The position numbers and the translations under genes are program-made. Below the pieces are notes generated by a model that did no database searches, was not told where the DNA came from, and saw only the letters and a list, made by a program, of their open reading frames with translations. From a virus, in IMG/VR virus record IMGVR_UViG_3300030012_003256, positions 1-55,975 of that record: a stretch of 55,975 nt of DNA. One strand, written 5' to 3'. Each line of letters begins with the position of its first letter. Position 1 is the stretch's first letter. This document shows positions 19,862-48,782 of this stretch, one piece after another.

Positions 19862-20745
19862 TCCTCCAATGTTTTTTGTATTCTTCCTGTTCTAATACTG
19901 GATAAATCCCAGTCCATAGCCTTAAAAATAGGTTCAGCCTTCTTCAAAACCTGTTCGGCATAGTGTTCAAGGTCGGGAAGAAGGCCGCTAAAGTCTTTCA
20001 TTTCAACACCGGATATAAACTCAACGGCTCGTTTTTCATGTGTCAAGGGATGCGTATAGACATCGTTCATACCCTTTACTTTCAAAAATAAATATGAATC
20101 ATCAAAATTAGCGTCATATTTTTCCCAAGCATATAAAACACCAGCAATACCCGAACCTATTGATGGCTTTTTGCCTTCAATTGTAGTAAAGTTCTTTATT
20201 GGTGAAGCACATTTGGGGCAAGCCCTATATTTCATGGTAATACAATCTCTCAGATGATATTTTGAACGACATTCGGGGCATTTTACCTCAAAACGATTTC
20301 TTCTTAATCGGCTTCTTTTAATAAAAGAATCAAGAGGCATTTTACCAGACATGATTTCTTCATAGGTTTTATGAAGAGAGGCAACGATTTCTTCCTGTGT
20401 TTTCTCACTAACCCACATTTTAAGAGTCCGAGTTTGCACTTCTTTTGCCATTTTTGTTTCACTAACACGCTTTGCAGTAAAACCTGTCATTGTGAACTTT
20501 GGCTCATCAAGCCATACTCCATCATCCCAAGTAATCAATCCTGCGTTTCTGTTTTTCGTAGTGCCGACCCCAAGAGCCGAATAAAACTTTTCAAACTCCA
20601 GACTAACGGGATGCTGTTCAAGTCCGAGAACATTCGGGAAACTTTTTTTGACTTCATCTTCAATCACCTTAATTGCTTTTTGTGCGGCTTCTACGGAATC
20701 AATTTGCACATAGATAGAATCTGTATGTCCATAAACCACTTTCAT
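19852..20745 (-). CDS. polB: DNA polymerase B, C-terminal part (motif C, thumb, PIP box)
   Basis: The chain starts directly with palm motif C, VVYGHTDSIYVQ, where most family B enzymes have YGDTDS; His replaces the first Asp. A KFTMTGFTAKRV segment fits the conserved Lys-rich KxY region. The thumb carries a zinc-ribbon insertion (CPEC and CPKC, about 20 residues apart). The final residues QKTLEEWF match a PIP box (QxxLxxWF) for binding the sliding clamp. It must pair with the product of 21430-23124 to give a complete polymerase. ATG has GAGGTG seven bases ahead. No sequence between the halves appears lost. Confidence 0.85.
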   Translation of the reverse strand: MKVVYGHTDSIYVQIDSVEAAQKAIKVIEDEVKKSFPNVLGLEQHPVSLEFEKFYSALGVGTTKNRNAGLITWDDGVWLDEPKFTMTGFTAKRVSETKMAKEVQTRTLKMWVSEKTQEEIVASLHKTYEEIMSGKMPLDSFIKRSRLRRNRFEVKCPECRSKYHLRDCITMKYRACPKCASPIKNFTTIEGKKPSIGSGIAGVLYAWEKYDANFDDSYLFLKVKGMNDVYTHPLTHEKRAVEFISGVEMKDFSGLLPDLEHYAEQVLKKAEPIFKAMDWDLSSIRTGRIQKTLEEWF

Positions 20746-21223: not shown

Positions 21224-21437
21224 GTTCAGTCCTCCAATATGTTCTTTTATTTCTATCATCTACAATAGTAATTAATTTAGAATGCCTTGATAAATAGGAA
21301 CCTATTGTAGTCGTGTTTTCTAAATATCTTAAGGTTTTCATTTTATCAACCATTCTATCTTTCATTTGTGCCGCAGAAAAACCGTCTGGCATATTTGGTA
21401 TTTCTTTATCAATTTTCTTACTTAAAAAACTATTCAT
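21213..21437 (-). CDS. Hypothetical small protein, possibly winged helix, 74 aa
   Basis: Two helices (AAQMKDRMVDKMKTLRYL and TIGSYLSRH) followed by KLITIVDDRNKRTYWRT would fit a small winged-helix DNA-binding fold, though this is only a pattern reading. It starts within the end of PolB N-part with AAAGGAGATG ahead. Confidence 0.5.
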   Translation of the reverse strand: MNSFLSKKIDKEIPNMPDGFSAAQMKDRMVDKMKTLRYLENTTTIGSYLSRHSKLITIVDDRNKRTYWRTEHEN

Positions 21438-23124
21438 CTATTTTCATCTCCTTTGCTTTAAATGCGGCAAGTCTAATTGCTTCTCTTGCACTTGCGGTAA
21501 TAGATGCGGCTAAATCAACATCAGCCCATCCAAATCCTTGAAAAGCAACAATGCCATAAAAAGAGGCCATTAATCGCTTTACTGCCATTTGATTGTTATA
21601 CCATTTAGCATACTCGCCGTTGTCCTCCTTTTGTGCTTGATACATAAGTCGCTTATATTCATTTCGCAACTCCTTCAATTCAAGAACGGCTCTCGGTAAA
21701 AGACCGAGTTTATCTGTTTTATAGTAAAGCATATCTTGATATTTAACTTCACTAAAATCTCTTGGTGTAAGAATATTTACAGCAAATTCTGTTGGTTGTT
21801 TTGATTTTGTTTCCCAACTAATATTGCGAGCAATCATCATTGAAGGATATAGACCAGCAAAATCAAAAGCGGCAACATTCAAATGTAATCCGTTTGTCTC
21901 TTCGCTTAACGGGTCATAAATCATCGCACCTTCATATTCTTTGCGTTCATCAACCTTTTTACCTGTTGGTGCTTTCCAAGTAGCATTTCGCATAAAATAA
22001 ATACTACCCATATGAGAAGCATAGAAACAAGCATCAAATGGTGCTTTCAATAACCTTTGAAGTGAAAGAATCGCTTCACTACAAAAATTAGTCTCATCAA
22101 TTTCAACCATCAGTTCAACATCTCTCACAGCATACTTAAGATAAGTTCCTGTATCTTCTAACCAACCTTTACGATAAAACTCGTTAGTATCTGGAAACTT
22201 CCAAGAAACCAATTTCTTTTTGTTAAGAACAGTCTCTCCGATATAATCAAGCGATAAAGAAGGTAATGTTCCTCTTTGGCTGTCATTCCATTGTCTTTCA
22301 AAAGCAAGGTCTAACGAGAGGGTTATGCGACCCCCTACGGGTTGCTCAATGGGAGAGAACCCACTTTCACCATAGGCGAAAGAGAAGCCGTCCTTGACCT
22401 TTTTAACGCCCTTAACGAAGCCAATTGGAGACATGATGCGAGGGTCAAGACCCACGGCACACACCCGTTCAAATAATTTCGGTAAATCAGCAAAATGACC
22501 AAACCAAGCAATTAACATATCTGGGTCTTTTACAATCATTGTAGTCATAAAAGATTCAAGCATTTCTTTTTCTGAAGGAAAAATATGCAAGTGCGTTTCG
22601 GTGTCGTTGGAAAGTGCTTCCCAATCAAAGGAATGCTTCGTGTGCATTTTATTAGGAAACCAGACCCATTGAATATACTTTTCATCGTAGTTATCATAAG
22701 AAACAATTGTTGTAATGCAATCGTGATATTCTCCGCCTTGTTGCCATTCCATATCCCAATACCACTTTCGCAGTTTATATTCAGGCATTTCATCTAATTC
22801 ATCAACACAATACCGAAAATGCAAAGGAACATCTGCCTCATAGGTTTCATTCCACATCTTCTTTGCATTACGAACATCATTTGCATTCTCAACAAAAACT
22901 TTTTTCAAAGACTTCCCTTCAAGATTAGTCCAGTTGCCACGAACATATTCAAAGTCTCTAGTAATATATTTACTTGGCGAATAACTAAAAAATTCTGTGG
23001 CTTCTTCATCCACAAAGAAGTATGGTCTAAAATTTACCATTTCATACTTTCTTTCACCGTTTTCTCTCCATGCTTTATATATTCTCATTCCATCATTCAT
23101 TTTATTAATAATCACTAATATCAC
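21430..23124 (-). CDS. polB: DNA polymerase B, N-terminal and exonuclease part to motif B
   Basis: This 564-residue chain starts like archaeal PolB (VNFRPYFFVDEE). The exonuclease domain has WYWDMEW (Exo I, Asp124 and Glu126), LIAWFGHFADLPKL (Exo II, with the usual Asn replaced) and YAVRD (Exo III). The palm follows with FDFAGLYPSM (motif A) and KRLMASFYG (motif B). The chain stops just before motif C, which opens the gene at 19852-20745. Four small genes lie between. GTG 23124 overlaps the sliding clamp stop (GTGA) and is needed to include the conserved first strand; no good ribosome site is seen. Confidence 0.88.
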   Translation of the reverse strand: MILVIINKMNDGMRIYKAWRENGERKYEMVNFRPYFFVDEEATEFFSYSPSKYITRDFEYVRGNWTNLEGKSLKKVFVENANDVRNAKKMWNETYEADVPLHFRYCVDELDEMPEYKLRKWYWDMEWQQGGEYHDCITTIVSYDNYDEKYIQWVWFPNKMHTKHSFDWEALSNDTETHLHIFPSEKEMLESFMTTMIVKDPDMLIAWFGHFADLPKLFERVCAVGLDPRIMSPIGFVKGVKKVKDGFSFAYGESGFSPIEQPVGGRITLSLDLAFERQWNDSQRGTLPSLSLDYIGETVLNKKKLVSWKFPDTNEFYRKGWLEDTGTYLKYAVRDVELMVEIDETNFCSEAILSLQRLLKAPFDACFYASHMGSIYFMRNATWKAPTGKKVDERKEYEGAMIYDPLSEETNGLHLNVAAFDFAGLYPSMMIARNISWETKSKQPTEFAVNILTPRDFSEVKYQDMLYYKTDKLGLLPRAVLELKELRNEYKRLMYQAQKEDNGEYAKWYNNQMAVKRLMASFYGIVAFQGFGWADVDLAASITASAREAIRLAAFKAKEMKIDE

Positions 23125-29433: not shown

Positions 29434-29795
29434 TCTTCTAACACCTGCCTCAAAATAGCCTCAATCACAGAAAGGTCAGCGTTATTATTTTCAAACATGG
29501 AAAGACACAGTAAAATTAATTGTTTATATCTTTGTTCATTTTCTGGTTTAAAATCTTTTATGCCGACCCACTCTGCTACCTTGCGTTGATTCTTTCTTGG
29601 CTCAATCGGTTTTCCCAACAACTGCGACCTTCGCTCATACAAATGAATAAGCATTTTACTATTCCATTTAATTATCCTGGAAATATGACCTAAATGACTA
29701 TTTACCTGTTTTAAACTCATATCTGTAATTTTTCTAACCTTCCCTGTTGAATCTGCAATATGGTTTGCTCTTGCTTTTGCATCTGATTTACTCAT
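29430..29795 (-). CDS. Hypothetical protein, 121 aa
   Basis: A mostly helical basic protein (KARANHIADSTGKVRKI at the start) with an acidic end. It sits in a run of coupled genes before the ligase-linked group. The ribosome site AAGAGGTG is clear. Function unknown. Confidence 0.55.
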   Translation of the reverse strand: MSKSDAKARANHIADSTGKVRKITDMSLKQVNSHLGHISRIIKWNSKMLIHLYERRSQLLGKPIEPRKNQRKVAEWVGIKDFKPENEQRYKQLILLCLSMFENNNADLSVIEAILRQVLEE

Positions 29796-30214
29796 TCTTC
29801 TTCACCTCTTCTAATGGGCCACCCGTCTGGACGGAAATGGTTTAACATAAGACGAATAAATTTTTGAGTCTTTTCAAAATTCATTCTCCGAGAGAAAACG
29901 ATTTCCGAAATCATTTGAAGCACATCTGGGAATTTTTCCCCATAGTCTGTCCAGAAACGAGAAGAATTCATGCTTTCAGCGAGTTCTACAAATCTCTGAT
30001 TTTCATATTCTTTCTTAAACTCAAGCCAAGAAAGAAGAAGACCTTTATCCATGCGAAGAATAAAGTCTTCTAATTCGTATTCTCTCCAACCATTAGTTGT
30101 TGATTTTCCTTTCCAAAGTTGGCGAGGGTGAGTGTTTTTGAAACGAGGCCATTTCTTTCGCAAGTCTGCAAGAATTTGTTCTTGTTCTTCATCAGTTAAT
30201 TTATCCCATTTCAT
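29792..30214 (-). CDS. Hypothetical protein, 140 aa
   Basis: Helix-rich product with many Trp and Arg residues (KKWPRFKNTHPRQLWKG) and an EEE end that carries the next gene's overlap. It is directly downstream of the ligase with a four-base overlap, so the two are likely co-translated. No family recognised. Confidence 0.55.
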   Translation of the reverse strand: MKWDKLTDEEQEQILADLRKKWPRFKNTHPRQLWKGKSTTNGWREYELEDFILRMDKGLLLSWLEFKKEYENQRFVELAESMNSSRFWTDYGEKFPDVLQMISEIVFSRRMNFEKTQKFIRLMLNHFRPDGWPIRRGEEE

Positions 30215-31752: not shown

Positions 31753-31882
31753 TTTCAATCATCTCCTTACTATTATTTATTTCTTTAATCAGTTGTTTTA
31801 GAAGTATACTGATTTTTCCTTCATTTCTTTCTGAATAAGTCCACATAGCGTTTGCTAAATAGACCCAATCATTCTTCTTCAT
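31640..31882 (-). CDS. Hypothetical protein, 80 aa, overlapping ligase start
   Basis: ATG 31882 has AGGTGG six bases ahead. The N-terminal half is helical (DWVYLANAMWTYSE) and the C-terminal half, encoded across the ligase start, is polar (DRPIDTDSTDKSDF). The overlap with the ligase is 113 bases, so the true end may matter less than the first half. No family recognised. Confidence 0.45.
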   Translation of the reverse strand: MKKNDWVYLANAMWTYSERNEGKISILLKQLIKEINNSKEMIENDMGKYEQNATSDRPIDTDSTDKSDFTGLGNIHNGEE

Positions 31883-32222
31883 TTTTTCCACCTAATGCTT
31901 GCAAAAGCCGCAAAAAATTAATCATAATTTGTTCAACCACCTGTGCCTCTTCAACTTGTCCTTGTTCAAGAAAACGATGCATCATGTGAATAAGTGTTGC
32001 TTGAGTAATTGCTGGTGCTAATCTAGCAAGACTATTGTTCATTGAGATTTCCCAATAACAAACAAAACTGGCTCTTGCTAAATAATTTGCTCCGTCTGCT
32101 AATTCAGCATAACCTTGATTAAAGTGGTCAAGGTTTAATTCATTAGGAATTAATCCCTTCATTTCTTTTGCCCATTCTTCAAATGCTTTATCATCAACGG
32201 TAGTATTGTATAGTTCATTCAT
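31869..32222 (-). CDS. Hypothetical protein, 117 aa
   Basis: Helical product with no motif; it ends in NEEE, whose codons form a purine-rich run and ATGA-type junction with the next gene. Strong coupling to both neighbours supports it as real. Confidence 0.55.
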   Translation of the reverse strand: MNELYNTTVDDKAFEEWAKEMKGLIPNELNLDHFNQGYAELADGANYLARASFVCYWEISMNNSLARLAPAITQATLIHMMHRFLEQGQVEEAQVVEQIMINFLRLLQALGGKNEEE

Positions 32223-32521
32223 TCTTCTTCCTCTCCTTTCTTTGTATTTGCTTCTTCATCCATAAATTGCCTCATAGCCTGATACATTCTTCCAAATGCC
32301 ATTTCAACATGCGGTAATTGAACACGGCAACCTCTCCCACTATTCGGGGGCATAGGCATTCTTTGTTCAATATATAAAGCAAATAAATCCACTAATTCTC
32401 CTGCCTTTGCTCTAAACTTTGTTAGAGACTGACCATGAGAATTACCCCATTGTCTTTCAGGGTTGGCTTTTCTTACTGCTTTCTTCGCTTGTAGTTCACT
32501 TATTTTAGTTCTCTCCGTCAT
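32219..32521 (-). CDS. Hypothetical basic protein, 100 aa
   Basis: Arg/Lys-rich N terminus (KKAVRKANPERQWGNSHGQ), a helical middle, and an EEEE tail at the overlap with the next gene. GGAGGGAAC lies before the ATG. It might bind nucleic acid; no family recognised. Confidence 0.5.
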   Translation of the reverse strand: MTERTKISELQAKKAVRKANPERQWGNSHGQSLTKFRAKAGELVDLFALYIEQRMPMPPNSGRGCRVQLPHVEMAFGRMYQAMRQFMDEEANTKKGEEEE

Positions 32522-33221: not shown

Positions 33222-34745
33222 TTATTCCTCCACCAATACTGCAACATCTGTTGAATAAAACAATTGAGCAATTGATAATGCCGCTAAGAAACTGTTCTTA
33301 GAAACCTTCACGGGGTCAAAGACTCCTGCTTTAAACAAATCTTCGTGCTGACACGAAACAGCATTAAAACCCCAGTTAGGATTTGTTCCATCAATTGTTT
33401 TTTCAATTTCAAAAGAAACAATCCTTGTTTGCTCGGTAAAGTTTGCATTATCCAAAAGAACATGATAAGGCTCAACAACAGACTTTTTAAACCAAACTGG
33501 CGCATCAATAGCGTGAGCAAGACGAATGAATGGAACACCACCACCAACAACAATACCTTCTTCAAGAGCCGCTTTTGTTGCATTAAGAGCATCATCAAGT
33601 CGCTCTTTCTTTTCTCGCATTTCAATTGATGAAGAAGCACCAACTTTGATTGTAGCAACACCGCCCTTTAGACGAGTAATACGAGACTTAATTCGTGCCG
33701 CATCATATCCTTTCATTTCACTCAATGTTTTTTTGAGCGTAGCAATTCGTTCATCAGCATTTCCCTCACCACCCATAAAGGTAGTATTTTCTTTACTGAT
33801 GATAACCTTCTCACAAGTCCCAAAATCAGAAACAACAAACTGTTGAGGACTGTCTTTGCTTTCGTGGTTGAATACCTTTCCACCAACAATTGCTTGAATG
33901 TCAGCCAATTCATCAATTTGTGCATCACCAAAGTTAGGTGCAAGAATAGCCGCACACTCCACAGTCTTATTAATCAGATTCATCAATAAATTGTTCAACG
34001 CTGAACTTTCCATACCCTTACAAAGAATCAGCAAAGGTCTTCCGTTCTGCGAAGAATACTCAAGCATTGGCAACAAATCCTTAAAAGAACGGAAAGGAAT
34101 GTTGGATAAGAAAATCAATGGGTTTTCAAATTCAACCTTGCCGCTTTCGGTGTTGCACATTAAATGACTGATATATCCTTCAGGAACTTCCATTCCCTCT
34201 CGGAGAATCAATTTTGTAGCATAATTGTTAGATTCTTCAACGGTGATAACACCATCACGACCGACCGTATTAAACGCTTCTTGAATCAAATGGCCAAGAG
34301 AAGCATCGTTATTCGCAGCAATTGTAGCAATATTTAGAATATCTGAATCTTCGACTGACATCGAGATATTATCTAAGAAATTAATAGTTTGTTGGCGAAG
34401 GTTCTCCATCAAGAGGTTAAAGTCGTGTGCTGTCATTTTATCTTCATTATTAAATAATTCATTACAAAAAGCCTGTGCAAGAATACAAGCCGTTGTAGTT
34501 CCATCACCTGAACCTTCTTGTGCCTTACTTGCCAGATTTTGAACTAATTGCACACCCATTTGAACATAAGGGTCTTCATGGGAAATATACTTCGTAATTG
34601 TTACACCGTCATTAATTACAACTGGTGGATTACCCTGCAAAATAACAGTTTTTGCTTGTGGCCCTAATGTTGGTTTAACGGTATCAGCCACCAAGTTAAT
34701 TCCTTGTAGCAGTTTTTCTTTTACTTCTCTTCCTTTAATAATCAT
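33222..34745 (-). CDS. groL: Group I chaperonin (GroEL/Hsp60-like)
   Basis: The 507-residue protein has bacterial-type Hsp60 signatures rather than thermosome ones: LGPQAKTVILQG, NDGVTITKYI, GSGDGTTTACILAQ (nucleotide binding), IKSRITRLKGGVATIKVG, and ALEEGIVVGGG. It lacks the C-terminal GGM repeats and is a little shorter than GroEL. It would fold virus proteins such as tail or capsid subunits in a barrel capped by the GroES-like product encoded nearby. ATG has GGAGGAG ahead. An archaeal virus carrying a group I chaperonin is notable. Confidence 0.93.
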   Translation of the reverse strand: MIIKGREVKEKLLQGINLVADTVKPTLGPQAKTVILQGNPPVVINDGVTITKYISHEDPYVQMGVQLVQNLASKAQEGSGDGTTTACILAQAFCNELFNNEDKMTAHDFNLLMENLRQQTINFLDNISMSVEDSDILNIATIAANNDASLGHLIQEAFNTVGRDGVITVEESNNYATKLILREGMEVPEGYISHLMCNTESGKVEFENPLIFLSNIPFRSFKDLLPMLEYSSQNGRPLLILCKGMESSALNNLLMNLINKTVECAAILAPNFGDAQIDELADIQAIVGGKVFNHESKDSPQQFVVSDFGTCEKVIISKENTTFMGGEGNADERIATLKKTLSEMKGYDAARIKSRITRLKGGVATIKVGASSSIEMREKKERLDDALNATKAALEEGIVVGGGVPFIRLAHAIDAPVWFKKSVVEPYHVLLDNANFTEQTRIVSFEIEKTIDGTNPNWGFNAVSCQHEDLFKAGVFDPVKVSKNSFLAALSIAQLFYSTDVAVLVEE

Positions 34746-35164: not shown

Positions 35165-35298
35165 TCTTCTTCACCATACCATTCTGTTTTATTTACTTCC
35201 TTTATCCCATCATGGTCATTACAAGAAGAACATGACCAATAGCCTAAATTATCATTTGCCTCTGTTTCGCAGAAAATACAAATCATAATTTTTGTCAT
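35161..35298 (-). CDS. Small zinc-ribbon protein, 45 aa
   Basis: Two Cys pairs, CIFC near residue 7 and CSSC near 23, form a zinc ribbon, followed by an acidic tail ending GEEE. It overlaps GroES by ATGA and the basic protein gene upstream, so it is part of the same coupled array. Function unknown. Confidence 0.6.
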   Translation of the reverse strand: MTKIMICIFCETEANDNLGYWSCSSCNDHDGIKEVNKTEWYGEEE

Positions 35299-35597
35299 TC
35301 TTCTTCATCTCCCATTACCGGAATAGCGACCCATGCTCGCCTATCGTGAGAAACCCAAGTATAAACATGAGTCTTGTAAAACTCTTCAAGACGCTTTTCA
35401 CGAACAGTTCGCTTTTCATTTTTCTTTCGCCATTGAATACCCTTATCAGTTCTTTGTTTATTCTCATCATTTGGATGAGCCTTAGCATGACGCTTTGCTC
35501 TTTCCTTCAAAGAAATTTTTTCAGGTTTTTCCATAGGTCTATCTTGATATTTAGCGGCTGTGCTTAATCCTTTCTTAATTGTTTTAAATCTTGTCAT
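35295..35597 (-). CDS. Very basic protein, 100 aa
   Basis: Dense in Lys and Arg (ERAKRHAKAHPNDENKQRTD, RKKNEKRTVREKR) with an acidic GDEEE end. It could bind nucleic acid. It is encoded immediately after the JAMM peptidase gene and overlaps it by four bases. No family recognised. Confidence 0.5.
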   Translation of the reverse strand: MTRFKTIKKGLSTAAKYQDRPMEKPEKISLKERAKRHAKAHPNDENKQRTDKGIQWRKKNEKRTVREKRLEEFYKTHVYTWVSHDRRAWVAIPVMGDEEE

Positions 35598-36178
35598 TCT
35601 TCTTCACCCCATGTTTGTGTTTTAACTGGCTCATTGTTCAAGTATATTTCTAATTGCTTAGGATTAAATTGGCTGTCCCAAAAACCATAGTGTCCTTCTC
35701 CACCAAGAACATATGCACATTCCATATTCGGCTCCCAAATAGAAACTGTCCGAATATCCGTTCCACTAAAATATGCGGCTCCAAATGGATGAGTATGAAT
35801 CCAACAACGGATAGGAAGAGACATACCAATTGGAGGCTCAAAGAAATCAACAAAACCCGGACTTCCTGTTGAAACGAAACAATTATTCTTTCCATCAATT
35901 ACAACCTGCACTTCAAGATTAGGGAGAGTTTCTGTTGATGCTCGCCAAATAGTTTCTTGAAATTCTAAATGGTGCATAGCAACGCCTTGCAATTTTTCTC
36001 TTGGCCCAACACAAGAACGCAACTGTTGATTCAAAAGAAACTCATAATGTGCTTTAATGTCATCAATTGCCTTTTGACGAAAATATTCCAATTCTGCTTG
36101 TTCAATTTCATAATGGTCATAAATATCATCACCATCATCATTACCATCTTTAATCATTTTATCTTTGATTCTTCCCAT
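35594..36178 (-). CDS. JAMM/MPN-type metallopeptidase (deubiquitinase-like)
   Basis: The 194-residue protein has the JAMM zinc site in full: HTH at 128-130, seven residues, Ser138, two residues, Asp141 (HTHPFGAAYFSGTD). JAMM peptidases cut after Gly-Gly of ubiquitin-like proteins. Here a ThiS-like gene ending GG-NY and an E1-like gene are in the same minus-strand array. The N-terminal 70 residues are helical and acidic and may bind a partner. The upstream catalytic Glu is not certain. A tail-assembly role, as for lambda K, is less likely because there is no NlpC domain and it is not in the tail operon. Confidence 0.82.
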   Translation of the reverse strand: MGRIKDKMIKDGNDDGDDIYDHYEIEQAELEYFRQKAIDDIKAHYEFLLNQQLRSCVGPREKLQGVAMHHLEFQETIWRASTETLPNLEVQVVIDGKNNCFVSTGSPGFVDFFEPPIGMSLPIRCWIHTHPFGAAYFSGTDIRTVSIWEPNMECAYVLGGEGHYGFWDSQFNPKQLEIYLNNEPVKTQTWGEEE

Positions 36179-36180
36179 AT

Positions 36181-37239
36181 TTATTCACCTCTTAGTCGGT
36201 TCAATTTTCTTTCCATTTTTGCCTCAAGGCGAGCAACCTTAGCGGCCCGTCTTTCTGCTTTCTTTGCCACCCTGCGCTCCTTTCGTGAGGGCTTTTGGGG
36301 CTTCTCGGTTCGTGGACTCTTCCGCTTCATAACGATGTCCGAAGCCTCCATAAGCATAGCAATATGCTCTGGTTCTGAAGAATCAAATAGCATTTCAAGC
36401 CTTTGAGCAACAACCCAGAAAGGTCGTGCAAATGCTTCTCTTACTTCATCAATAGACATTTCATAGAAATTTACCAAGATGTTCATATCTTGGGAACGAG
36501 TCCAAGCAAAACTATTTTCATTCTTTTCATTAGACTGCAAAACTACTGGTTCATCTTCCAGAGGCTCTGGTTCTACAACAGTTTCAATCTTCTTTCTTTC
36601 CGTTGGTAGGAACTTTCGCAGTCGTGAAGGAACAGCAGATTCTTCTTTCATTTTAAACCATTCACCACTTCTCATAAGTTTGCTTCGCTTTGCTTGACAG
36701 GCTTTACTTGACCTTCCAATAACTTCAGAAATTTGATTCCAAGTTTTATTAGAATGATACATGTCAAATAGTAATTTAATTTGCATTTCAGACCAATTCC
36801 TTGTTTTCTTCTTTTTAGAGAGAATAACAGGATTTGTTGTTTCTATTTCAGATTTTCCCATATTTAATTGAATTAAATCGGAAGCCTCTCCCTTTGTCAT
36901 TCCTCTTGTTTCAAAAGAATCTGCAAGAGCCATTCTGTCCTTTATTCCTGAATCTGGTGCAGTCAAAGAGGCTAATGTCCTCAATTGACGGCGAGTTGCG
37001 CTTTCAGCCCTCCAATTCTTTTGGCTAAGAATAGGCTTTGGTGCAAGGCTTTCTTGAATAGTTTCTTTCTTACTACCTTCTTTAGTAGAAACAATAGAAT
37101 CATATTTTCGCTTTAGGTTTTGTACTAGCCTATCATGTCCATATTTTTCTAACATCAATTCTCTAATTTCTGTATAAGTGCTACCTGCGCTTCTCATTAC
37201 AACAAGCGTGGCTATTTCTTCTGCGGTATATTTTGGCAT
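36181..37239 (-). CDS. Myb/SANT-like DNA-binding protein, three repeats
   Basis: This 352-residue protein shows three tryptophan-type helix-turn-helix units: YTAEEIATLVVMRSAGSTY at the start, RNWSEMQIKLLFDMYHSNKT in the middle, and FAWTRSQDMNILVNFYEMS later. The middle one is followed by SSKACQAKRSKLM, as in Myb/SANT repeats. The end is a long Lys/Arg/Ala run (RRVAKKAERRAAKVARLEAK). It probably binds DNA as a viral regulator or DNA organiser. It lies between the E1-like and JAMM genes; whether it is part of that system is unknown. Confidence 0.6.
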   Translation of the reverse strand: MPKYTAEEIATLVVMRSAGSTYTEIRELMLEKYGHDRLVQNLKRKYDSIVSTKEGSKKETIQESLAPKPILSQKNWRAESATRRQLRTLASLTAPDSGIKDRMALADSFETRGMTKGEASDLIQLNMGKSEIETTNPVILSKKKKTRNWSEMQIKLLFDMYHSNKTWNQISEVIGRSSKACQAKRSKLMRSGEWFKMKEESAVPSRLRKFLPTERKKIETVVEPEPLEDEPVVLQSNEKNENSFAWTRSQDMNILVNFYEMSIDEVREAFARPFWVVAQRLEMLFDSSEPEHIAMLMEASDIVMKRKSPRTEKPQKPSRKERRVAKKAERRAAKVARLEAKMERKLNRLRGE

Positions 37240-37252
37240 TTTTTATTCCTCC

Positions 37253-37810
37253 TTACATATTTATTACGGTGTATTCTTTTACTTCTTCTCCGTTGAAGAA
37301 CCTTTGAATCCATTGTGCGCCTAATCCTGCGATTGCGACTTGCATAAAATGAACTCCTGTATTTGTTCCATCCCATGAATCCCCTTGACAACTGAAAGAA
37401 CCTTCTTCACCTGCTAAGAGCATATCATACATTTTAGGGTCGGCCTTGTGCGACACAAGGGCGGCGTTTCTACCCTGCGCTCGTAGGTCAAGCCATTTAA
37501 GACTTGTGTTGTATAATGTTCGCCTGACGCTCAAGTTATCAACACAACAAACCACAAGGTCATAACCCTGCATCTGCTTCTTAGTCAAAATAGGATATTC
37601 GCTACCAAGACTGACAGAATCATAATTTTCAGCCATAATGGATGCCTTGTTGCGACTTACATGACCGAGATTAAAGTTTTGATAAGATATATTCTTATCT
37701 TCAACTGAATCTGGGTCAGCCACAGTTATATCATAAAGACCTACTTTATCTAAAAGGGGAATTAGAAAACTTCCAATTCCACCTGCTCCAATTACTAATA
37801 CTTTTCTCAT
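37253..37810 (-). CDS. E1-like (ThiF/MoeB/UBA) adenylating enzyme
   Basis: The 185-residue protein has the ThiF Rossmann core: GAGGIG (8-13), acidic ADPDSVEDKN (31-40), SRNKA (Arg53 and Lys55), CCVDN (88-92) and a candidate catalytic Cys at 141 (GSFSCQGDSW). These enzymes adenylate the C-terminal Gly of a ubiquitin-like protein using ATP. It is shorter than ThiF (about 250) and lacks the C-terminal zinc region. Its partners here would be the ThiS-like protein at 43815-44021 and the JAMM peptidase two genes downstream. AAGGAGG precedes the ATG. Confidence 0.85.
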   Translation of the reverse strand: MRKVLVIGAGGIGSFLIPLLDKVGLYDITVADPDSVEDKNISYQNFNLGHVSRNKASIMAENYDSVSLGSEYPILTKKQMQGYDLVVCCVDNLSVRRTLYNTSLKWLDLRAQGRNAALVSHKADPKMYDMLLAGEEGSFSCQGDSWDGTNTGVHFMQVAIAGLGAQWIQRFFNGEEVKEYTVINM

Positions 37811-38289
37811 TCATATTCCTCCTTATCAAGTTCTTCATAATATGCAATATTATCAGCATATTCCTTTTTAATTTTCTTCCAATGAATTTCGTGAGAACAA
37901 AATTCACAATTTTCATCTCCACAATCTTCCATTCCAATCTTCTTCTCAAGCGTATAATTGAGATATGCGTCATATTCAGGATGCCAGACAACTAAATGCC
38001 CCATATCCTCGTATTTCTTAACTTCTGCTTCTTCTTTGGAAAGAGGCATAACATCATTTACATTTACATTTGTCTTACAAATAGGACAATCCCAATTAGT
38101 CCTGAGCATGAAATCTAAATCTAGTGGTGCTGATGTCAAAAAACGATTGTTTTGTTCTCGCAAATAAAGTTCAGCCTTTTCTTTACAGAAAGGACAGTCT
38201 GTTCTTAGTCTCTCAAGAACACTAGCAACTCCTTTTTCCATTTCATCGGCAAGTTTTGATTCATCAAATTCTTCAATTACTTTTTCCAT
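37807..38289 (-). CDS. Multi-zinc-ribbon protein, 160 aa
   Basis: Three Cys clusters occur: CPFC near residue 32, CPIC near 69, and CGDENCEFC near 127 with a nearby His. Multiple ribbons may bind nucleic acid or a protein partner. It overlaps the E1-like gene by four bases, so a joint role (for instance an adaptor) is conceivable but unproven. Confidence 0.55.
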   Translation of the reverse strand: MEKVIEEFDESKLADEMEKGVASVLERLRTDCPFCKEKAELYLREQNNRFLTSAPLDLDFMLRTNWDCPICKTNVNVNDVMPLSKEEAEVKKYEDMGHLVVWHPEYDAYLNYTLEKKIGMEDCGDENCEFCSHEIHWKKIKKEYADNIAYYEELDKEEYE

Positions 38290-38291
38290 AT

Positions 38292-38468
38292 TTATTCCTC
38301 CACTAAAATCATTCTAGGAACAATAAGTTCATCAGTTAGCACACAATTCCAATTACAAGTAAGATTAACAGGCAGACCTGCCGCAAGTATCTTATTTTGA
38401 TGTTGGATTTGCCGCATCATTTGGATGCAACAAGGGCAGTCTGTGTTTAATTTTTTATCTTTATACAT
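38292..38468 (-). CDS. Small Cys-rich protein, 58 aa
   Basis: Cys residues at CPCC and CNWNC suggest metal binding. It starts after GGAGGAATAAAT and ends just before the next gene's ribosome site. No family recognised. Confidence 0.55.
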   Translation of the reverse strand: MYKDKKLNTDCPCCIQMMRQIQHQNKILAAGLPVNLTCNWNCVLTDELIVPRMILVEE

Positions 38469-38480
38469 ATTTATTCCTCC

Positions 38481-38807
38481 TCAAAATGTTTTACCATGCA
38501 TAAATTCACGACTTTCGTTGTATTCTATTTTTGCTAGAATTGCTCCTGCAATATCTAAATCTTTACCAAACGCATAATCCATAATACGAATTACTGCATC
38601 GGCTAATTCTTCTTCAAGATTACTAAACTCCATAATCTTTGACGAAGAAGGATTACCTTCACGCAAAGCCTCAAGTGCTTCGCTAATTTCAGCATGAATC
38701 AAGGCCATGCGTTCTCCGTCATTTGGTTCTTCTTTCCAAAAACCATGATTAACAGCGTTCTTATAAACTTTCTTTGCAACTTTATTCCATTCTTTAGAAA
38801 ATGTCAT
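38481..38807 (-). CDS. mazG: MazG-like nucleotide pyrophosphohydrolase
   Basis: The 108-residue helical protein has the MazG metal site pattern: ALIHAEISEALEAL (ExxE) and ELADAVIRIMDYA (ExxD). MazG hydrolyses dNTPs or signalling nucleotides to monophosphates and pyrophosphate; marine viruses often carry it, possibly to alter host nucleotide pools. It is followed in the window by dNTP-related RNR upstream in the same array. GAGGTG precedes the ATG. Confidence 0.8.
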   Translation of the reverse strand: MTFSKEWNKVAKKVYKNAVNHGFWKEEPNDGERMALIHAEISEALEALREGNPSSSKIMEFSNLEEELADAVIRIMDYAFGKDLDIAGAILAKIEYNESREFMHGKTF

Positions 38808-38992
38808 TGTTTCACCTCAATATATCCTCGCTCAATCTGAACCTTTCGTGGTAAGCATTTTGCACACATAGCAAACACTTCTCCATTATTTACCCAGAGT
38901 TTTGATTCTTCACGGCTCATTTCTTTTCCACATTTATCGCAAGTTGTAATAGCACGATAATGCTCATTTGTTTTGTTTTTATTTTTTACCAT
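38804..38992 (-). CDS. Small zinc-ribbon protein, 62 aa
   Basis: CDKCGKEMS near residue 18 and CAKCLPRK near 43 form a zinc ribbon. It overlaps TFB upstream and MazG downstream by a few bases. GGGGGAA precedes the ATG. Function unknown; a DNA- or RNA-binding role is possible. Confidence 0.6.
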   Translation of the reverse strand: MVKNKNKTNEHYRAITTCDKCGKEMSREESKLWVNNGEVFAMCAKCLPRKVQIERGYIEVKQ

Positions 38993-39852
38993 AATTTTTT
39001 CCCCCTAATTTCTTTAACCTTTTTCATATCGAGATAGGATAAAAGGGTTCTAGTATTTTTTAATAAACTATCTCTTTTTTTGTTTGTTTTTTCACAAATG
39101 TATTTTTGTGTAATTTCTGTGTGTGAAAGAATCACATTTGCAGTAATCCAGCAAATACATTCATAGTGATTAACTGTTTTGTTATAGTCATTTGCTTCAA
39201 GAATAGTTTCAAAATATTCCATTGTCTTGACCGCTTCTTTATTAAAATCATTTCCAGCATTTAGTTTAGAAAGAACTCTATCTAAAAGAAAGTATTTATT
39301 CTCACGCACAGGTCTAAAACCTACATGTTTCTTTATCTTCTTTACTACCTTTTTTGCTTTTGGTATTTCAGAAGATAAGTCTAAAGCCACCTCTTCAAAG
39401 GTATGCGGTGTTCCTTGTTTTAGTAGCAGAAAATATACAATAGATACTGCTCTTGTCTCATAAGTGTCGCTAGTTGAAAATACGCCCCTATTGAATAAGT
39501 CAAGATATAACTTATGCATTTCTTCTTGATTTAGAAGATGACTAAATGGTGCAAAAACCATATTGCAGTTATGCAGACCGTCCATTACATATGGTGGGAG
39601 AACTGAATTAATAGTTTTCTTAACTACATGTGATTTAATATTTTTAATATCACCAACAATGGAAGAACCCAATCCACGATTGAATAGTCCCAAGTTAGCA
39701 GTATGGGTCGCTTCTCCACCTTTAAAGCCTAAAGTGGTCTGCTCAAAGATTTGAACATCAAGAACAAGACCGCATACAGAACAGACGGTTTCTCCAAGAG
39801 TTTCGTCAAATTCGTTGTTTCGGCTTCCACAATCTTCACATTTCAATTTCAT
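38986..39852 (-). CDS. tfb: Transcription factor B (TFB/TFIIB-like)
   Basis: The N-terminal zinc ribbon has CEDC (5-8) and CSVCG (24-28), followed by the linker region GLFNRGLGSSIVGD, which matches the archaeal TFB signature after the B-finger. The rest is helical, with two cyclin-like repeats (TVNHYECICWITANVIL and TEITQKYICEKTNKKRDS). TFB bridges TATA-bound TBP and RNA polymerase. A viral copy may direct transcription to virus promoters, and a repeated BRE-like GAAGCCC element is seen in the window. Start at ATG 39852 puts the ribbon at the end; ATG 39873 is possible. Confidence 0.85.
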   Translation of the reverse strand: MKLKCEDCGSRNNEFDETLGETVCSVCGLVLDVQIFEQTTLGFKGGEATHTANLGLFNRGLGSSIVGDIKNIKSHVVKKTINSVLPPYVMDGLHNCNMVFAPFSHLLNQEEMHKLYLDLFNRGVFSTSDTYETRAVSIVYFLLLKQGTPHTFEEVALDLSSEIPKAKKVVKKIKKHVGFRPVRENKYFLLDRVLSKLNAGNDFNKEAVKTMEYFETILEANDYNKTVNHYECICWITANVILSHTEITQKYICEKTNKKRDSLLKNTRTLLSYLDMKKVKEIRGKKLW

Positions 39853-40966
39853 CAAAATCAAACCTATTTTCATTTTTATTACCGACCAAATAGCGTCGGA
39901 TGGTGCTCACAATTTGTATCGTAAAAGTGTCATTTAATAAGGCTAACGCTCTTGCGGCGAATTGGTCGCCAAGTGAGGAACCCTTTGCCATATTGTCAAT
40001 ACAAATTGGGCCTCGCCAATCTATGTCATCTTCATCATCTTTTCTAATGGGTTGCCAAACATATGTTGAAACCATCTGAATTTCAGACTTAAATTTAGTG
40101 TCTGTAATTTTCCAGTCGTAGTCCTTTCCTTTAACATAGAGAGAAGAAAGTTCACCCTCTTCATCATAAGTGGCTCTAAGTCTGTCGGGGTACTGGTTAA
40201 GAAGTTCTTGAACCAATTCAATGGCTCTTTGTTCAACAATATCTTGTGTTCGGTTCTGCGAAAGAAATGCTCTCATCACTTTCATGCTTGATTCCGAACC
40301 TTCTTCATCCATTAGACGATAATAAAGTTCATCGGGGCTAATATTTACCCAAGAACCGACTTTCTTCCCATGAAGATAAAAATTACAGAAAGTATTTAAT
40401 TCTCGGACGGTCATTGTTCCCCAAATACCATCACTAATCTCAACTGCGATTTCTTTATCGCCAATCTGCTGACAGTTAAGACGAACCTCAATTTTTTCAC
40501 GACTCTCATTAAAATCATAAAAGAAATAAGGAATACGATTTTCAAGACAATACTTTACATCAGCAGGTAGATTCAGCGTTGCATACAAAGTAAGTAATAA
40601 CTTAGCAGGGTCTTGTTCAAAACAAGATTTATATGTCAAACGAGCCAATGCAGAAATAATATCTGCCAAATTAGCAACCTTGCCATTTATTTCATAACGA
40701 ATACCTGAACGAGAAAGCAATACGGGACAGGAACCAATTTTAACTAAATGATTAAAAGTTGGCTGAAAGCCATTTCTACGATTATATCTTGTCTTTTTAG
40801 GAGACAAATAGCCCCGCCAGTAGTTCTCAATTCCTGCTAAAACAGGGTCTTTCTTTGACCTGTTCGGCCTAATAAGTTCTCTGGAAAAGGTAAAGGTTTC
40901 ACAATTAATTGTAGTGTTATATTTTTCACCACTATCATCGGGTTTTTGAATTTGAATTTCTGCCAT
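39836..40966 (-). CDS. Hypothetical protein, 376 aa
   Basis: No recognised family. The sequence has mixed helix and strand, with Arg-rich segments near residue 60 (KKTRYNRRNGFQPTFNHL) and an acidic middle (IRKDDEDDIDWRGP). It is the longest unassigned product in this part of the array and overlaps the TFB start, so its expression is coupled to TFB. Confidence 0.6.
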   Translation of the reverse strand: MAEIQIQKPDDSGEKYNTTINCETFTFSRELIRPNRSKKDPVLAGIENYWRGYLSPKKTRYNRRNGFQPTFNHLVKIGSCPVLLSRSGIRYEINGKVANLADIISALARLTYKSCFEQDPAKLLLTLYATLNLPADVKYCLENRIPYFFYDFNESREKIEVRLNCQQIGDKEIAVEISDGIWGTMTVRELNTFCNFYLHGKKVGSWVNISPDELYYRLMDEEGSESSMKVMRAFLSQNRTQDIVEQRAIELVQELLNQYPDRLRATYDEEGELSSLYVKGKDYDWKITDTKFKSEIQMVSTYVWQPIRKDDEDDIDWRGPICIDNMAKGSSLGDQFAARALALLNDTFTIQIVSTIRRYLVGNKNENRFDFDEIEM

Positions 40967-40970
40967 ATTT

Positions 40971-41132
40971 TCACATCACATACATATTTTTATTATCATT
41001 ATCACAGAAATTGTGGATTTCCTTTTGTATTTCTTCTATTGACAACAATTGTTTTCCACAGACTCTACATTGTGTAGCGACCTGCTTATTTTTTCTCCTA
41101 TTGAGAATATATTTTGGGTCTTTTTCTTTCAT
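40971..41132 (-). CDS. Small Cys-containing protein, 53 aa
   Basis: Basic N terminus and a CRVCGKQL motif near residue 21, plus one Cys near the end (HNFCDND), suggest a metal site. The gene overlaps the preceding one by 35 bases. Function unknown. Confidence 0.45.
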   Translation of the reverse strand: MKEKDPKYILNRRKNKQVATQCRVCGKQLLSIEEIQKEIHNFCDNDNKNMYVM

Positions 41133-41469
41133 ACATTTTCACCATTTTTTCTTTGATATTTTTTTCGTGAATACACACTTTACAATTATGTTTAGGGCAT
41201 TCTTTTTCATGATAATCTAACATTTGTTTTATTTTTTCTGATTCGTCTTTAAAATATTTATGAAATCCTTTACTGATTGCTTCATCGTTATTCCAAAGAG
41301 TTTTTAGAAAGGTTTGAGAAAGTCTCCATATTTTTTCTTTATCATCTTGAAGAGAATGACAGACATTAATAGCCATAGCCAATCTATCAAGATTTGAATT
41401 ATCATTATAATTACACATTTGGATTATTACACTTTCACATTCCTTATAGGAATTAAAAAGCGTTGTCAT
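41098..41469 (-). CDS. Hypothetical protein, 123 aa
   Basis: Helical protein ending with HEKECPKHNCKVCIHEKN, a Cys/His cluster that may bind zinc. It follows the RNR gene by eight bases with AGGTGG ahead of ATG. No family recognised. Confidence 0.55.
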   Translation of the reverse strand: MTTLFNSYKECESVIIQMCNYNDNSNLDRLAMAINVCHSLQDDKEKIWRLSQTFLKTLWNNDEAISKGFHKYFKDESEKIKQMLDYHEKECPKHNCKVCIHEKNIKEKMVKMYERKRPKIYSQ

Positions 41470-41477
41470 ATTCCCAC

Positions 41478-43343
41478 CTAAATTTCACAAGCACCACCCG
41501 CACAGGCTAGTTCGCCCGATAGGTCAGTATTGTCTTGAGTTTCAACAACTTTAGACAAATCAACTTGAGTCAGAGTTTTGCTTAATTCTTTAAACATTTC
41601 AGCATTACAATCTTCGAAGGGTGCTTGAGTATAAGACCCGCCATCATAAGGTAAAACAGATAAACCGTTATAATAATGTCTGTTAATCCACATCCATTCA
41701 GCAACCTTCTCCCATTCATCTTCTTTGATAGAAACTGTTGCTGAAACATTATGTGTATTCAGCCCGTCATTATGACCCGCACCAACCCAACGAATACTAA
41801 AGTTCTTAACTCGCTCTAATAAATCAAATACTGATTCGTGGCGAGTGATTGCTCCTTCTGGAGCCTTTTGAGGAATACTAATAACTGCTTGTTCAATCGG
41901 ATTAAAGAACTCATCTTCAACCAATTCGGGATGATTACGAATCAAGTAGTCATAAATGGCTTCATTTTTGCCTACTCTAATTCTGCGAATGTAGTAATCG
42001 TTGTGCCAAGCATGAATGCCACTTGATGTTCCAAGAACAAGAGAAGTGGTTCCAGCAGGTTTAACACAAGTTGTCCGTGAAGCAGGATTAATACCGATAA
42101 TTTTGGCAACTCTTTCATTTTCTTTTTTAACTTCATATGCGGCCATTTCTAAATCAAGATGTTCCACAACATTGGAAGCGATACCTGTCATAGAAACACC
42201 AAGCAAAGCATCTTTTTCTGTTGCTTTACGCCATACTTCACGAAGATAATGAAAATCAGTATATCCCGCTTGAAGCGTTCCGAGGAAAGCGGCGGCAGAA
42301 ACTCTTGATTCTAAATCTGCTTGGTCAATTACATTTGACGCATTTACTTCCGTAAGATTACAAAACTGATATGGTCGCAAAGCAATTTCACAGCAGGGAT
42401 TCGTTCCCCAGTCTTTGTCATTATTGAAATAAATTCCCGGTTCTCCTGAACCCGATGCTTTAATTCTGTTCCACAAATCCATAAAGAAATCTTTCTTTAC
42501 ACGGTGTCGCAATAAAACTGCTGAATTGTTTGCTCTTCCTCTTTGAGCATTCTTTTCCCACCAATTGCCAGACTTACATGCAATCATTTCGTGGTCATCT
42601 GCTGAAAATAAACTTATCATAGCCGCACGACGAATACCGCCACTTAAAACTGCATCAGCAATATGACACATAATATCATGTGCTTGGATTGGTTTTAACA
42701 TAGAGCCGTTAGGAATGTTTTGGAGCATACCTTCAATTTTGACAAGACATTCTCTTAGTGGCTGTGGGCCGGGGGCTTTTCCACCGGAAGTTTTCAAAAG
42801 AGAACCTTTTGGTCTAATATCAGAATAATCAAATGTAGGCGTAGATGTTCTAACTCCTGTATAACACTCCATCAAAATCTTAACTGCGTCAGCCCAACCT
42901 TCTATTGAATCATTCACTAAATATCGCCTTTGGCGATTTGGATTAGGATGTTGAATCGGTGCCAGCAATTCAACATGATGTCGCTGAACAGAATATCCAA
43001 CTCCTGTTCCACCCAATAACAGAAACATAGCCTCACTAAAAGCAACATGGGTATCAATAGGCATATATGCACAATTATATACACGATTTGGGCTAATCTC
43101 AATTGGCTTACCACCAAACTGCATTGAGCGCATAGATGGCAATACTTTCTTTGTTTTCACAAAATGAGTATAAACATCTATAATTTCATCCTTAAGTTGT
43201 GGATAGGTTTTAATGTGCATTTGCATATTTCTCTCAACGATTTCATCCCAAGTTTCTCTTCGGGACTTTTCTTCGCTAAATTTAGCATATTTCATATGCA
43301 CCGTAATATCTGATAATATCTTAATGTTTTGTTCTTGTATCAT
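41478..43343 (-). CDS. nrdJ: Adenosylcobalamin-dependent (class II) ribonucleotide reductase
   Basis: The 621-residue enzyme reduces ribonucleotides to deoxyribonucleotides. Conserved pieces are NCAYMP (first redox Cys), NPCCEIAL (radical Cys region), FCNLTEVN, PAGTTSLVLG, and a C-terminal Cys pair CAGGAC for reactivation. No separate small subunit gene is near, as expected for class II, so it depends on host or environmental vitamin B12. ATG 43343 with AGGTG six bases ahead is chosen. It would supply dNTPs for the AT-rich viral genome. No intein or frameshift is seen. Confidence 0.93.
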   Translation of the reverse strand: MIQEQNIKILSDITVHMKYAKFSEEKSRRETWDEIVERNMQMHIKTYPQLKDEIIDVYTHFVKTKKVLPSMRSMQFGGKPIEISPNRVYNCAYMPIDTHVAFSEAMFLLLGGTGVGYSVQRHHVELLAPIQHPNPNRQRRYLVNDSIEGWADAVKILMECYTGVRTSTPTFDYSDIRPKGSLLKTSGGKAPGPQPLRECLVKIEGMLQNIPNGSMLKPIQAHDIMCHIADAVLSGGIRRAAMISLFSADDHEMIACKSGNWWEKNAQRGRANNSAVLLRHRVKKDFFMDLWNRIKASGSGEPGIYFNNDKDWGTNPCCEIALRPYQFCNLTEVNASNVIDQADLESRVSAAAFLGTLQAGYTDFHYLREVWRKATEKDALLGVSMTGIASNVVEHLDLEMAAYEVKKENERVAKIIGINPASRTTCVKPAGTTSLVLGTSSGIHAWHNDYYIRRIRVGKNEAIYDYLIRNHPELVEDEFFNPIEQAVISIPQKAPEGAITRHESVFDLLERVKNFSIRWVGAGHNDGLNTHNVSATVSIKEDEWEKVAEWMWINRHYYNGLSVLPYDGGSYTQAPFEDCNAEMFKELSKTLTQVDLSKVVETQDNTDLSGELACAGGACEI

Positions 43344-43345
43344 GT

Positions 43346-43732
43346 TTAACACCTATATTTTGTCCTTTTTGGCAAAGCATCTAAAGTTGTAAAACTAAAG
43401 ATAAATGGTGTTTGTCCATCTGTCAAGACCCATTCTTTTTCCTCCACAAAAGACCAATTCTTAAAATCAAGAATTGCTTCTTTTCCGTGTGTTGTAAATA
43501 AATCTTCAACAGAAACAAACACCTGCCCTGCGTAGTCAATCCGAGTTTGTCCCTCGGCATAAATGTAGCCCTTCCGCCCCGTCGCAAGGATATGACGAGG
43601 TGGGTAAAAATCGGGCTTCACAACTGCTAAACCATTGAGCAGTAATGCGTTTTTGGCGTATTGCCAGCCCTTCAAATCAAGCATTAATTTAAGGGCATCT
43701 TCGTGAATAAAATTGAGCAAATCGGGTTCCAT
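43346..43732 (-). CDS. Hypothetical protein, 128 aa
   Basis: No motif recognised; beta-rich middle (RIDYAGQVFVSVEDLF) and many aromatic residues. It lies between the ubiquitin-like gene and RNR, and its start region follows a strong hairpin (43743-43779). Because of position it could be a partner of either neighbour. Confidence 0.55.
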   Translation of the reverse strand: MEPDLLNFIHEDALKLMLDLKGWQYAKNALLLNGLAVVKPDFYPPRHILATGRKGYIYAEGQTRIDYAGQVFVSVEDLFTTHGKEAILDFKNWSFVEEKEWVLTDGQTPFIFSFTTLDALPKRTKYRC

Positions 43733-43742
43733 CACTCAAAAA

Positions 43743-43779
43743 AGGGGAAGCCGCCAGTTAATATAACTAACGACTCCCC
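43743..43779 (-). other. Long hairpin ahead of the RNR operon part
   Basis: On the minus strand GGGG pairs with CCCC, then GTCGT with GCGGC, then AGTTA with TAACT around a TAT loop, giving about 16 pairs including G-T pairs. A TATATTAA stretch is in the loop region, so the element may combine a promoter and an RNA processing signal. Confidence 0.5.
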
Positions 43780-43805
43780 CGATTGTGGGCGATTGAGAAC
43801 AGAAA

Positions 43806-43824
43806 GAATTACTTTCAGTAATTC
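43806..43824 (-). terminator. Hairpin over the stop of the ubiquitin-like gene
   Basis: GAATTACT, a three-base loop, then AGTAATTC is a perfect 8-bp stem that overlaps the stop codon. On the minus strand it is followed by TTTCTGTTCTC, so it may end or stabilise a short transcript. Confidence 0.5.
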
Positions 43825-44021
43825 CCTCCAACAATAGCAGGGGTCAAGTCCACCGCTTGAACGGTGTCCCAGTTAATCTCTGCTATTGCTTCTCTCGCAA
43901 CCATTTCTCCATCAATAAAAACCCAATGGGTCGGATGGTCGCCAATTTGCTCAATCACTTCAGATGAAGCGAGCATTAAGTCTGTATGTCCTGTTTCATT
44001 CAAAATTCGTAGTCTAATCAT
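43815..44021 (-). CDS. ThiS/MoaD/ubiquitin-like beta-grasp protein, 68 aa, ends GG-NY
   Basis: The first strand IRLRILNE, a helix (SSEVIEQIGD), strand HWVFIDGEMVARE and the end VQAVDLTPAIVGGNY follow the ThiS/MoaD layout, whose ends read like ...LxPxVxGG. Gly65-Gly66 are followed by two extra residues (Asn-Tyr), as in ubiquitin-like precursors trimmed by a JAMM peptidase. An E1-like enzyme (37253) and a JAMM peptidase (35594) are in the same array. It has its own TTTATATA promoter at 44061. Role could be protein tagging or sulfur transfer. ATG 44021 has GGAGTTG ahead; an upstream ATG at 44057 is less likely. Confidence 0.6.
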   Translation of the reverse strand: MIRLRILNETGHTDLMLASSEVIEQIGDHPTHWVFIDGEMVAREAIAEINWDTVQAVDLTPAIVGGNY

Positions 44022-46688: not shown

Positions 46689-46883
46689 TTATTCCTCCTC
46701 TTGATAAAAGTGAGCATGAACAAACAAAATTAGCCAAGAGTAGAAGTCCAAATTGTGTAGTCCTTCTGACATATCTTCTTTGTATTGTTCTTTAACAATT
46801 TCTTCAAAGGTTTCAAAATGCCTCATAAAATACATTTCTTCTTTTATTCTTTCTTTATCATAAAATGGGTTTGGTTCTTTCAT
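46689..46883 (-). CDS. Hypothetical acidic protein, 64 aa
   Basis: Helical, aromatic-rich, with an EEE end at the junction. GGAGGAATAAAA precedes the ATG. No family recognised. Confidence 0.5.
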   Translation of the reverse strand: MKEPNPFYDKERIKEEMYFMRHFETFEEIVKEQYKEDMSEGLHNLDFYSWLILFVHAHFYQEEE

Positions 46884-48244: not shown

Positions 48245-48462
48245 TCATCTTCCTCCGGTAGATTAGTATATTTCACAATATGATTACATCTGGCAAAGTG
48301 AGCAATTTCTTCTACTTCAATGGCATAATCATCTGCTTCTTGCCATTCATTCAATATATGTTCAAGAATGCTGGTGTTCCAATCAGGATATTCCATCAAG
48401 AAACAGACCACATCATTGTCTGACCATTTATCTACAATTTTCATAAACTCTTCATATTTCAT
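48241..48462 (-). CDS. Hypothetical acidic protein, 73 aa
   Basis: Helical, acidic (EWQEADDYAIEVEEIAHF), with overlaps at both ends. No motif apart from a lone Cys. Function unknown. Confidence 0.5.
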   Translation of the reverse strand: MKYEEFMKIVDKWSDNDVVCFLMEYPDWNTSILEHILNEWQEADDYAIEVEEIAHFARCNHIVKYTNLPEEDE

Positions 48463-48695
48463 TCTTCTTCCTCCGAAAGTTTCTTAAGCATTTCTTGGAC
48501 TTGTTTTGCCCAAGAATCAACACATAGCATATCGAGGAAAGCATTTCGGTAGTTTCCGTCTTCGTAATGTTTTAGTGCATCTCTCATACAAAGTGCCATC
48601 ACATGAATTTTTCTTTCTGGTTCAGAAAGAATATCTTCTTCTGCTTCCGTATATTTGCTGTTCAGTTCAATTTTAAATTCTTTTAGTATCAACAT
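48459..48695 (-). CDS. Hypothetical protein, 78 aa
   Basis: ATG 48695 follows GGAGAAATAAAA; a frame extending to 48746 has no good start. The protein is helical and ends EEEE at the ATGA overlap. No family recognised. Confidence 0.5.
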   Translation of the reverse strand: MLILKEFKIELNSKYTEAEEDILSEPERKIHVMALCMRDALKHYEDGNYRNAFLDMLCVDSWAKQVQEMLKKLSEEEE

Positions 48696-48721
48696 TTTTA
48701 TTTCTCCTATGTTTTGTTTAG

Positions 48722-48782
48722 GGCTTTGCACCCTTTTGAGCGTCAAAATTATCCAATTCGTTCACGCTTACACGAACAGAGC
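48722..48782 (-). repeat. Conserved spacer element, copy 2 (after the UvrD-like gene)
   Basis: The minus-strand block CTCAAAAGGGTGCAAAGCC resembles GTCAAAGGGGTGCGAAGCC at 24952-24980. Both follow GTGTAAGCGT or GTGTAGCCGT and lie just after a gene whose stop is followed by a hairpin; here CAGGG/CCCTG near 48786-48805. Confidence 0.45.

Follow-up and report, generated by a model that had tools for sequence, protein, structure and literature searches.

The window analysed here is a virus record of 55,975 bases from IMG/VR (IMGVR_UViG_3300030012_003256), and the subject is three of its minus-strand genes, predicted to encode a small ubiquitin-like modifier (UbL), a minimal E1-like enzyme and a JAMM peptidase. 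An initial annotation had put these genes forward as a minimal tagging set, and all three open reading frames (ORFs) are indeed open on the minus strand (43815-44021, 37253-37810 and 35594-36178). The genes run in the same direction but are spaced apart, with about 6 kb of other genes separating UbL from E1 and a single gene (36181-37239) separating E1 from JAMM. The features are:

43815..44021, minus strand: predicted ubiquitin-like (ThiS/MoaD-like) beta-grasp protein, 68 residues, C-terminus GGNY (ORF, AlphaFold2 model, fold matches, conserved GG)
43818..43829, minus strand: codons of Gly65-Gly66 and of the two-residue tail Asn67-Tyr68
37253..37810, minus strand: minimal E1-like adenylating enzyme of the ThiF family, 185 residues, beginning at GxGGxG (Pfam ThiF, profile matches, 57-row alignment)
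37385..37393, minus strand: invariant Ser140-Cys141-Gln142 with the candidate catalytic cysteine
35594..36178, minus strand: JAMM/MPN+ metallopeptidase, 194 residues (Prok-JAB, AMSH profile match, structure model)
35756..35797, minus strand: JAMM motif His128-Thr-His130-x7-Ser138-x2-Asp141
35912..35914, minus strand: Glu89, the JAMM's candidate catalytic glutamate, assigned by its position relative to the catalytic Glu known for the family

The UbL ORF opens at an ATG and its product ends in ...LTPAIVGGNY. AlphaFold2 predicts the order b-b-a-b-b-a-b with a flexible C-terminus, at a predicted local distance difference test score (pLDDT) of 85. The top folds returned by Foldseek are almost exclusively ubiquitin, NEDD8 and SUMO (probability up to 0.99, E about 5e-3), and VIA ranks MoaD first (Z 5.8), followed by SAMP2 (5.1) and ThiS (5.0), with TtuB also listed; Z-scores this modest are to be expected of a protein this small. 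The model thus agrees with the ThiS/MoaD-like label first given to the protein, and UbL is predicted to adopt a ubiquitin-type beta-grasp fold. When its C-terminal half is aligned with E. coli ThiS, the spacing to the GG is equal and a V-x-R-E is held in common.

Relatives were gathered from IMG/VR, where at least 182 places hold UbL relatives and at least 307 hold E1 relatives, 80 per search being used. Not one of the 83 distinct UbLs has lost the GG, after which comes a variable tail of no residues (19), one (9) or two (55). The masking of the GG by two residues, as initially described, therefore holds for the window's protein and for 55 of the 83, while 19 end in a naked GG and 9 carry a single residue.

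Searches of Pfam and NCBIfam assigned UbL to no family and gave weak matches only. The comparison with ThiS and PRTRC profiles that had been suggested as a check did not place the protein: the Pfam ThiS model matched 1 of 41 members (E 0.033), and the NCBIfam PRTRC models, PRTRC_C included, did not match UbL. A relation to PinA, the Lon inhibitor, was considered because PF10465 weakly matched 23 of the 41 members (best 4.6e-4), and was dropped, since T4 PinA aligns with the middle stretch only and leaves out the GG end. One 184,733-base record (IMGVR_UViG_3300021958_000021, loci L012 and L317) has two different UbL copies about 93 kb apart, and may be two joined virus genomes.

The E1-like protein is matched by Pfam ThiF at 8.4e-15 (55 bits against a cut-off of 28.1), in line with its first assignment from a GAGGIG and a Cys141, both of which are present. 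Profile searches also match UBA5, Cap2, NAE and MoeB, and among family models those of ThiF match it best. In the 57-row alignment the invariant residues are G8, G10-S14, D32, K55 and D91-N92, among them the GxGGxG, Asp, Lys and DN motifs. Among E1s down to 28% identity, the invariant positions are mainly nucleotide-binding residues, D108, R110 and S140-C141-Q142, and the SCQ is kept in 103 of 103 distinct viral E1s. A MAFFT alignment sets Cys141 in the column of ThiF Cys184 and MoeB Cys187; a hidden Markov model alignment instead sets it near the zinc-ligand region of UBA5. Because the two disagree, we only infer a catalytic role for Cys141; its place in the invariant SCQ stands.

The third protein shows the HTH-x7-S-x2-D motif from which it was first called a JAMM peptidase, and the motif is found in 98 of 98 distinct relatives. 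E89, H128, H130, S138 and D141 are invariant in all 55 aligned members, of which 54 are matched by Prok-JAB below the Pfam cut-off, the window's own protein scoring 19.7 bits against a gathering score of 25. In a profile search AMSH comes first (E 1.8e-4), then CsRpn11, both of them deubiquitinases, and the folds nearest to the structure model (pLDDT 85) are AMSH (Z 8.9), PfJAMM1 (Z 8.8) and CsRpn11 (Z 8.2). WD40 and coatomer matches in the PDB, seen with the single sequence, are repeat artefacts and vanish with the profile.

The initial annotation had suggested that the JAMM trims the Asn-Tyr tail of UbL. Trimming seems plausible where a tail exists, but it cannot be the only job of the enzyme: the JAMM is present in 18 of 18 testable lineages whose UbL ends in a naked GG, which rules out a peptidase that is a tail trimmer alone. 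UbL has changed between naked and tailed forms at least three times on the E1 tree, and these changes, with the retention of the JAMM in the 18 naked-GG lineages, fit a role in deconjugation.

The three genes also travel together, as had been predicted for related viral contigs. Their order is UbL-E1-JAMM in 189 of 189 loci holding all three, these being loci and not independent viruses, since one contig may supply several. Any missing member coincides with a truncated flank, and all loci with enough flank carry the three; in some members of the group the E1 and JAMM ORFs partly overlap. The median ratio of nonsynonymous to synonymous substitution rates over many pairs is 0.20 for UbL, 0.18 for E1 and 0.32 for JAMM, which indicates purifying selection and shows that the trio are not chance ORFs. 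That UbL, E1 and JAMM form one system is strongly supported by these sequence comparisons. The zinc-ribbon gene next to E1, once named as a candidate partner, did not hold up as a conserved core member: it accompanies E1 in 4 of 56 loci, and different viruses have different genes upstream of E1. Three contigs of metagenome-assembled genomes labelled Altibacter and Maricaulis (L093, L094, L095) carry E1 and JAMM, with UbL in L093; they appear to be viral contigs that were placed in bacterial bins.

Remote relatives were found in contigs whose bins are labelled Aenigmatarchaeota or Pacearchaeota. The minimal SCQ-type E1 lies at 1640-2446 in L096, 468-1481 in L210/L256, 1489-2088 in L209 and 3869-4432 in L097, in two cases with a UbL beside or near it. 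The Aenigmatarchaeota-binned contigs (L210/L256 and L096) have a divergent UbL with a terminal GG. The UbL and E1 genes of L096 are adjacent, both read in two frames, while L210 has between them a 75-residue zinc-ribbon gene that looks unrelated to the one in the window. On the available stretches of L097 (Pacearchaeota) and L209, E1 is present and no UbL was found. For the Pacearchaeota-type E1, the search turned up no close relative in viruses. These contigs probably represent mobile elements, and L096 has a tyrosine-recombinase-like ORF close to its minimal E1. Having UbL within one gene of E1 in such remote contigs supports a partnership between the two proteins.

Altogether, the virus, while infecting its host, probably runs a cycle of its own that tags proteins or carries sulfur, and we consider it rather probable that this is a compact ubiquitin-like modifier cycle for reversible, E2-less protein tagging. 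The JAMM would remove the one- or two-residue tail where present. The E1-like enzyme would adenylate Gly66 of UbL using ATP, and may carry the modifier on Cys141. As in the archaeal SAMP system, no dedicated E2 would be needed to attach UbL to lysine residues of viral or host proteins, and the JAMM would release it from the conjugates again. Such a cycle would probably control how active or how stable proteins are in the course of infection. Tagging is favoured by a JAMM that is kept with no tail to trim, by its deubiquitinase-like profile, and by the fact that no sulfur-mobilising Pfam family was detected in a 94-kb relative, G003 (E 1e-8), or in the window (1e-7).

Several points weigh against this reading. 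The E1 has no N-terminal Arg helix of the MoeB type, since the protein begins at GxGGxG, and it has an invariant Tyr43 at the column of MoeB Arg73, so its adenylation chemistry is predicted only. No E2 or E3 was seen among the Pfam matches of the ORFs in the window and G003, where a divergent E2 could escape. The trio sits in a conserved core region, where co-inheritance says less than adjacency would. In cells, E1-UbL pairs like UbaA-SAMP work in sulfur transfer as well as in tagging, sulfur-carrier pathways include JAMM enzymes too, and sulfur enzymes could come from the host. The sequence is compatible with either product, a protein conjugate or a thiocarboxylate.

The chief rival is a sulfur-carrier module, which we regard as fairly unlikely. 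The JAMM would trim UbL, the E1 would adenylate Gly66, and a host desulfurase would give the sulfur, which the thiocarboxylate would hand on to a tRNA, a nucleotide or a metabolite, as with ThiS, TtuB, QbsE or CysO. The sequence of UbL is most like ThiS, with the same GG spacing and V-x-R-E, and this likeness, together with the double role that E1-UbL pairs have in cells, keeps the sulfur route open; the VIA ranking with MoaD first and the ThiF models that best match E1 point the same way. The bacterial thioquinolobactin carrier QbsE-QbsD-QbsC offers a close precedent, with the GG of its UbL masked by two residues and accompanied by a JAMM and an E1-like enzyme. The viral trio differs from it in that no biosynthetic partner or sulfur enzymes were found with it and in the JAMM of the naked-GG lineages, where no tail needs trimming. 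The viral E1 also has no rhodanese domain and is missing the CxxC pairs of MoeB and ThiF. A cysH gene has been reported in some magroviruses (PMC10160649), which again fits sulfur carriage.

It is improbable that UbL is instead a decoy or regulator of a host SAMP/UbaA machinery, with the viral JAMM stripping host tags and no viral conjugation cycle. Borg elements encode numerous putative deSAMPylases, which have been suggested to answer host tagging (PMC12660748), but the virus has its own conserved E1-like enzyme, and the remote elements carry UbL-E1 pairs with no JAMM found nearby. Very improbable is a role in virion assembly, in which UbL would be processed in morphogenesis and not conjugated, as proposed for lambda-type TapI (Ub-like) and TapK (JAB), which are paired in tail gene clusters (PMC1779556): here an E1 accompanies UbL and JAMM, and the trio lies in a minus-strand block for replication and nucleotide metabolism, outside the plus-strand structural genes at 1-14.2 kb of the window.

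Reversible tagging by the viral trio has its nearest cellular counterpart in archaeal SAMP/UbaA/HvJAMM1, which likewise has a beta-grasp modifier with a C-terminal GG, one E1-like enzyme, a releasing JAMM and no dedicated E2. HvJAMM1 frees SAMP1 from conjugates (PMC4443979). The trio differs in being virus-encoded, in a far shorter E1 (29.6 bits against the 450 of the UbaA equivalog score, which it does not reach), and in a UbL that often has a one- or two-residue tail. PRTRC systems of mobile elements and phages likewise combine a JAB and a ThiF with small proteins, and PRTRC_ThiF is among the better E1 matches, though far below cut-off. Membership in PRTRC was rejected on NCBIfam cut-offs (PRTRC_A 11.6 of 101.8, PRTRC_ThiF 40.8 of 144.75, UbL unmatched). 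Bil/Bub and type II CBASS (E1-E2-UbL-JAB) share the E1 adenylation domain and JAMM fold relatives, but they are host antiphage defences with an E2, and no E2 was seen among the Pfam matches here; PADLOC matches to E1 span its nucleotide-binding part only.

Annotated phage genomes held no JAMM relative and, apart from two matches at E=1, no UbL relative; E1 relatives there are below 60% identity and mostly in crAss-like phages. In two of these (L207 2483-6660 and L208 4598-6654) a JAB-like gene (HSHHTMGAFFSGTD) lies directly before the E1-like gene, in a PRTRC-like cassette with a possible beta-grasp protein upstream whose reading as UbL was made by eye only.

Prokaryotic JAB/E1/Ub clusters, and phage TapI/TapK, were described by Iyer et al. 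2006 (PMC1779556). RaFAH reports a ThiF/MoeB gene as one of the most frequent auxiliary genes in the archaeal viruses that it predicts, and suggests a link to ubiquitination; the gene is probably of the same E1-like class as here, and the passages on it discuss no JAMM or UbL partner (PMC8276007). In the literature searched we found no report of a UbL-E1-JAMM trio in archaeal viruses, though Philosof 2017, Prabhu 2025 and Zhou 2023 may mention the genes. Of the three genes, the ThiF/MoeB gene had been reported already; for the UbL and the JAMM we found no such report.

The minus-strand block of the window holds a family-B DNA polymerase, an RFC small subunit, an ERCC4 nuclease, an ATP-dependent ligase, a class II ribonucleotide reductase, a GroEL-type chaperonin and a TFB-like factor, and the window encodes a tRNA-Arg(TCT). 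Magroviruses, which are tailed and infect marine Poseidoniales, have genomes of 90-110 kb with two oppositely transcribed modules (PMC12999244; PMC10160649), and one published magrovirus likewise has a tRNA-Arg(TCT) (PMC5628999). The opposed modules and the tRNA fit these viruses, so the window and its IMG/VR relatives fit a magrovirus-like group, and by that resemblance the hosts are probably abundant marine archaea. The polymerase is apparently split, with small ORFs between two ORFs that both match DNA_pol_B (19852-20745 and 21430-23124). The chaperonin (33222-34745) is a bacterial-type (group I) GroEL in an archaeal-type virus (NCBIfam GroEL, best 3.3e-124). Many ORFs end in EEE (35594-36178, 29792-30214, 31869-32222, 32219-32521, 35295-35597, 46689-46883 and 48459-48746), probably where the Shine-Dalgarno-like GAGGAGGA of the next gene overlies the stop.

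We put at about even the fuller proposal, that the trio forms a self-contained cycle of conjugation and deconjugation, is part of the core gene set across a major group of marine archaeal viruses, and tags host or viral proteins during infection with an unorthodox minimal E1 (no MoeB-type arginines, an invariant SCQ) and no E2. Prokaryotic ubiquitin-like tagging has so far been seen in archaeal cells and in bacterial antiphage defence; if the proposal is true, here a virus itself would wield a ubiquitin-like cycle. An E2-less E1-UbL-JAMM trio this minimal would be small enough for full biochemical reconstitution and would bear on the origin of ubiquitin chemistry, and it would give a handle on how viruses control abundant, uncultured marine archaea.

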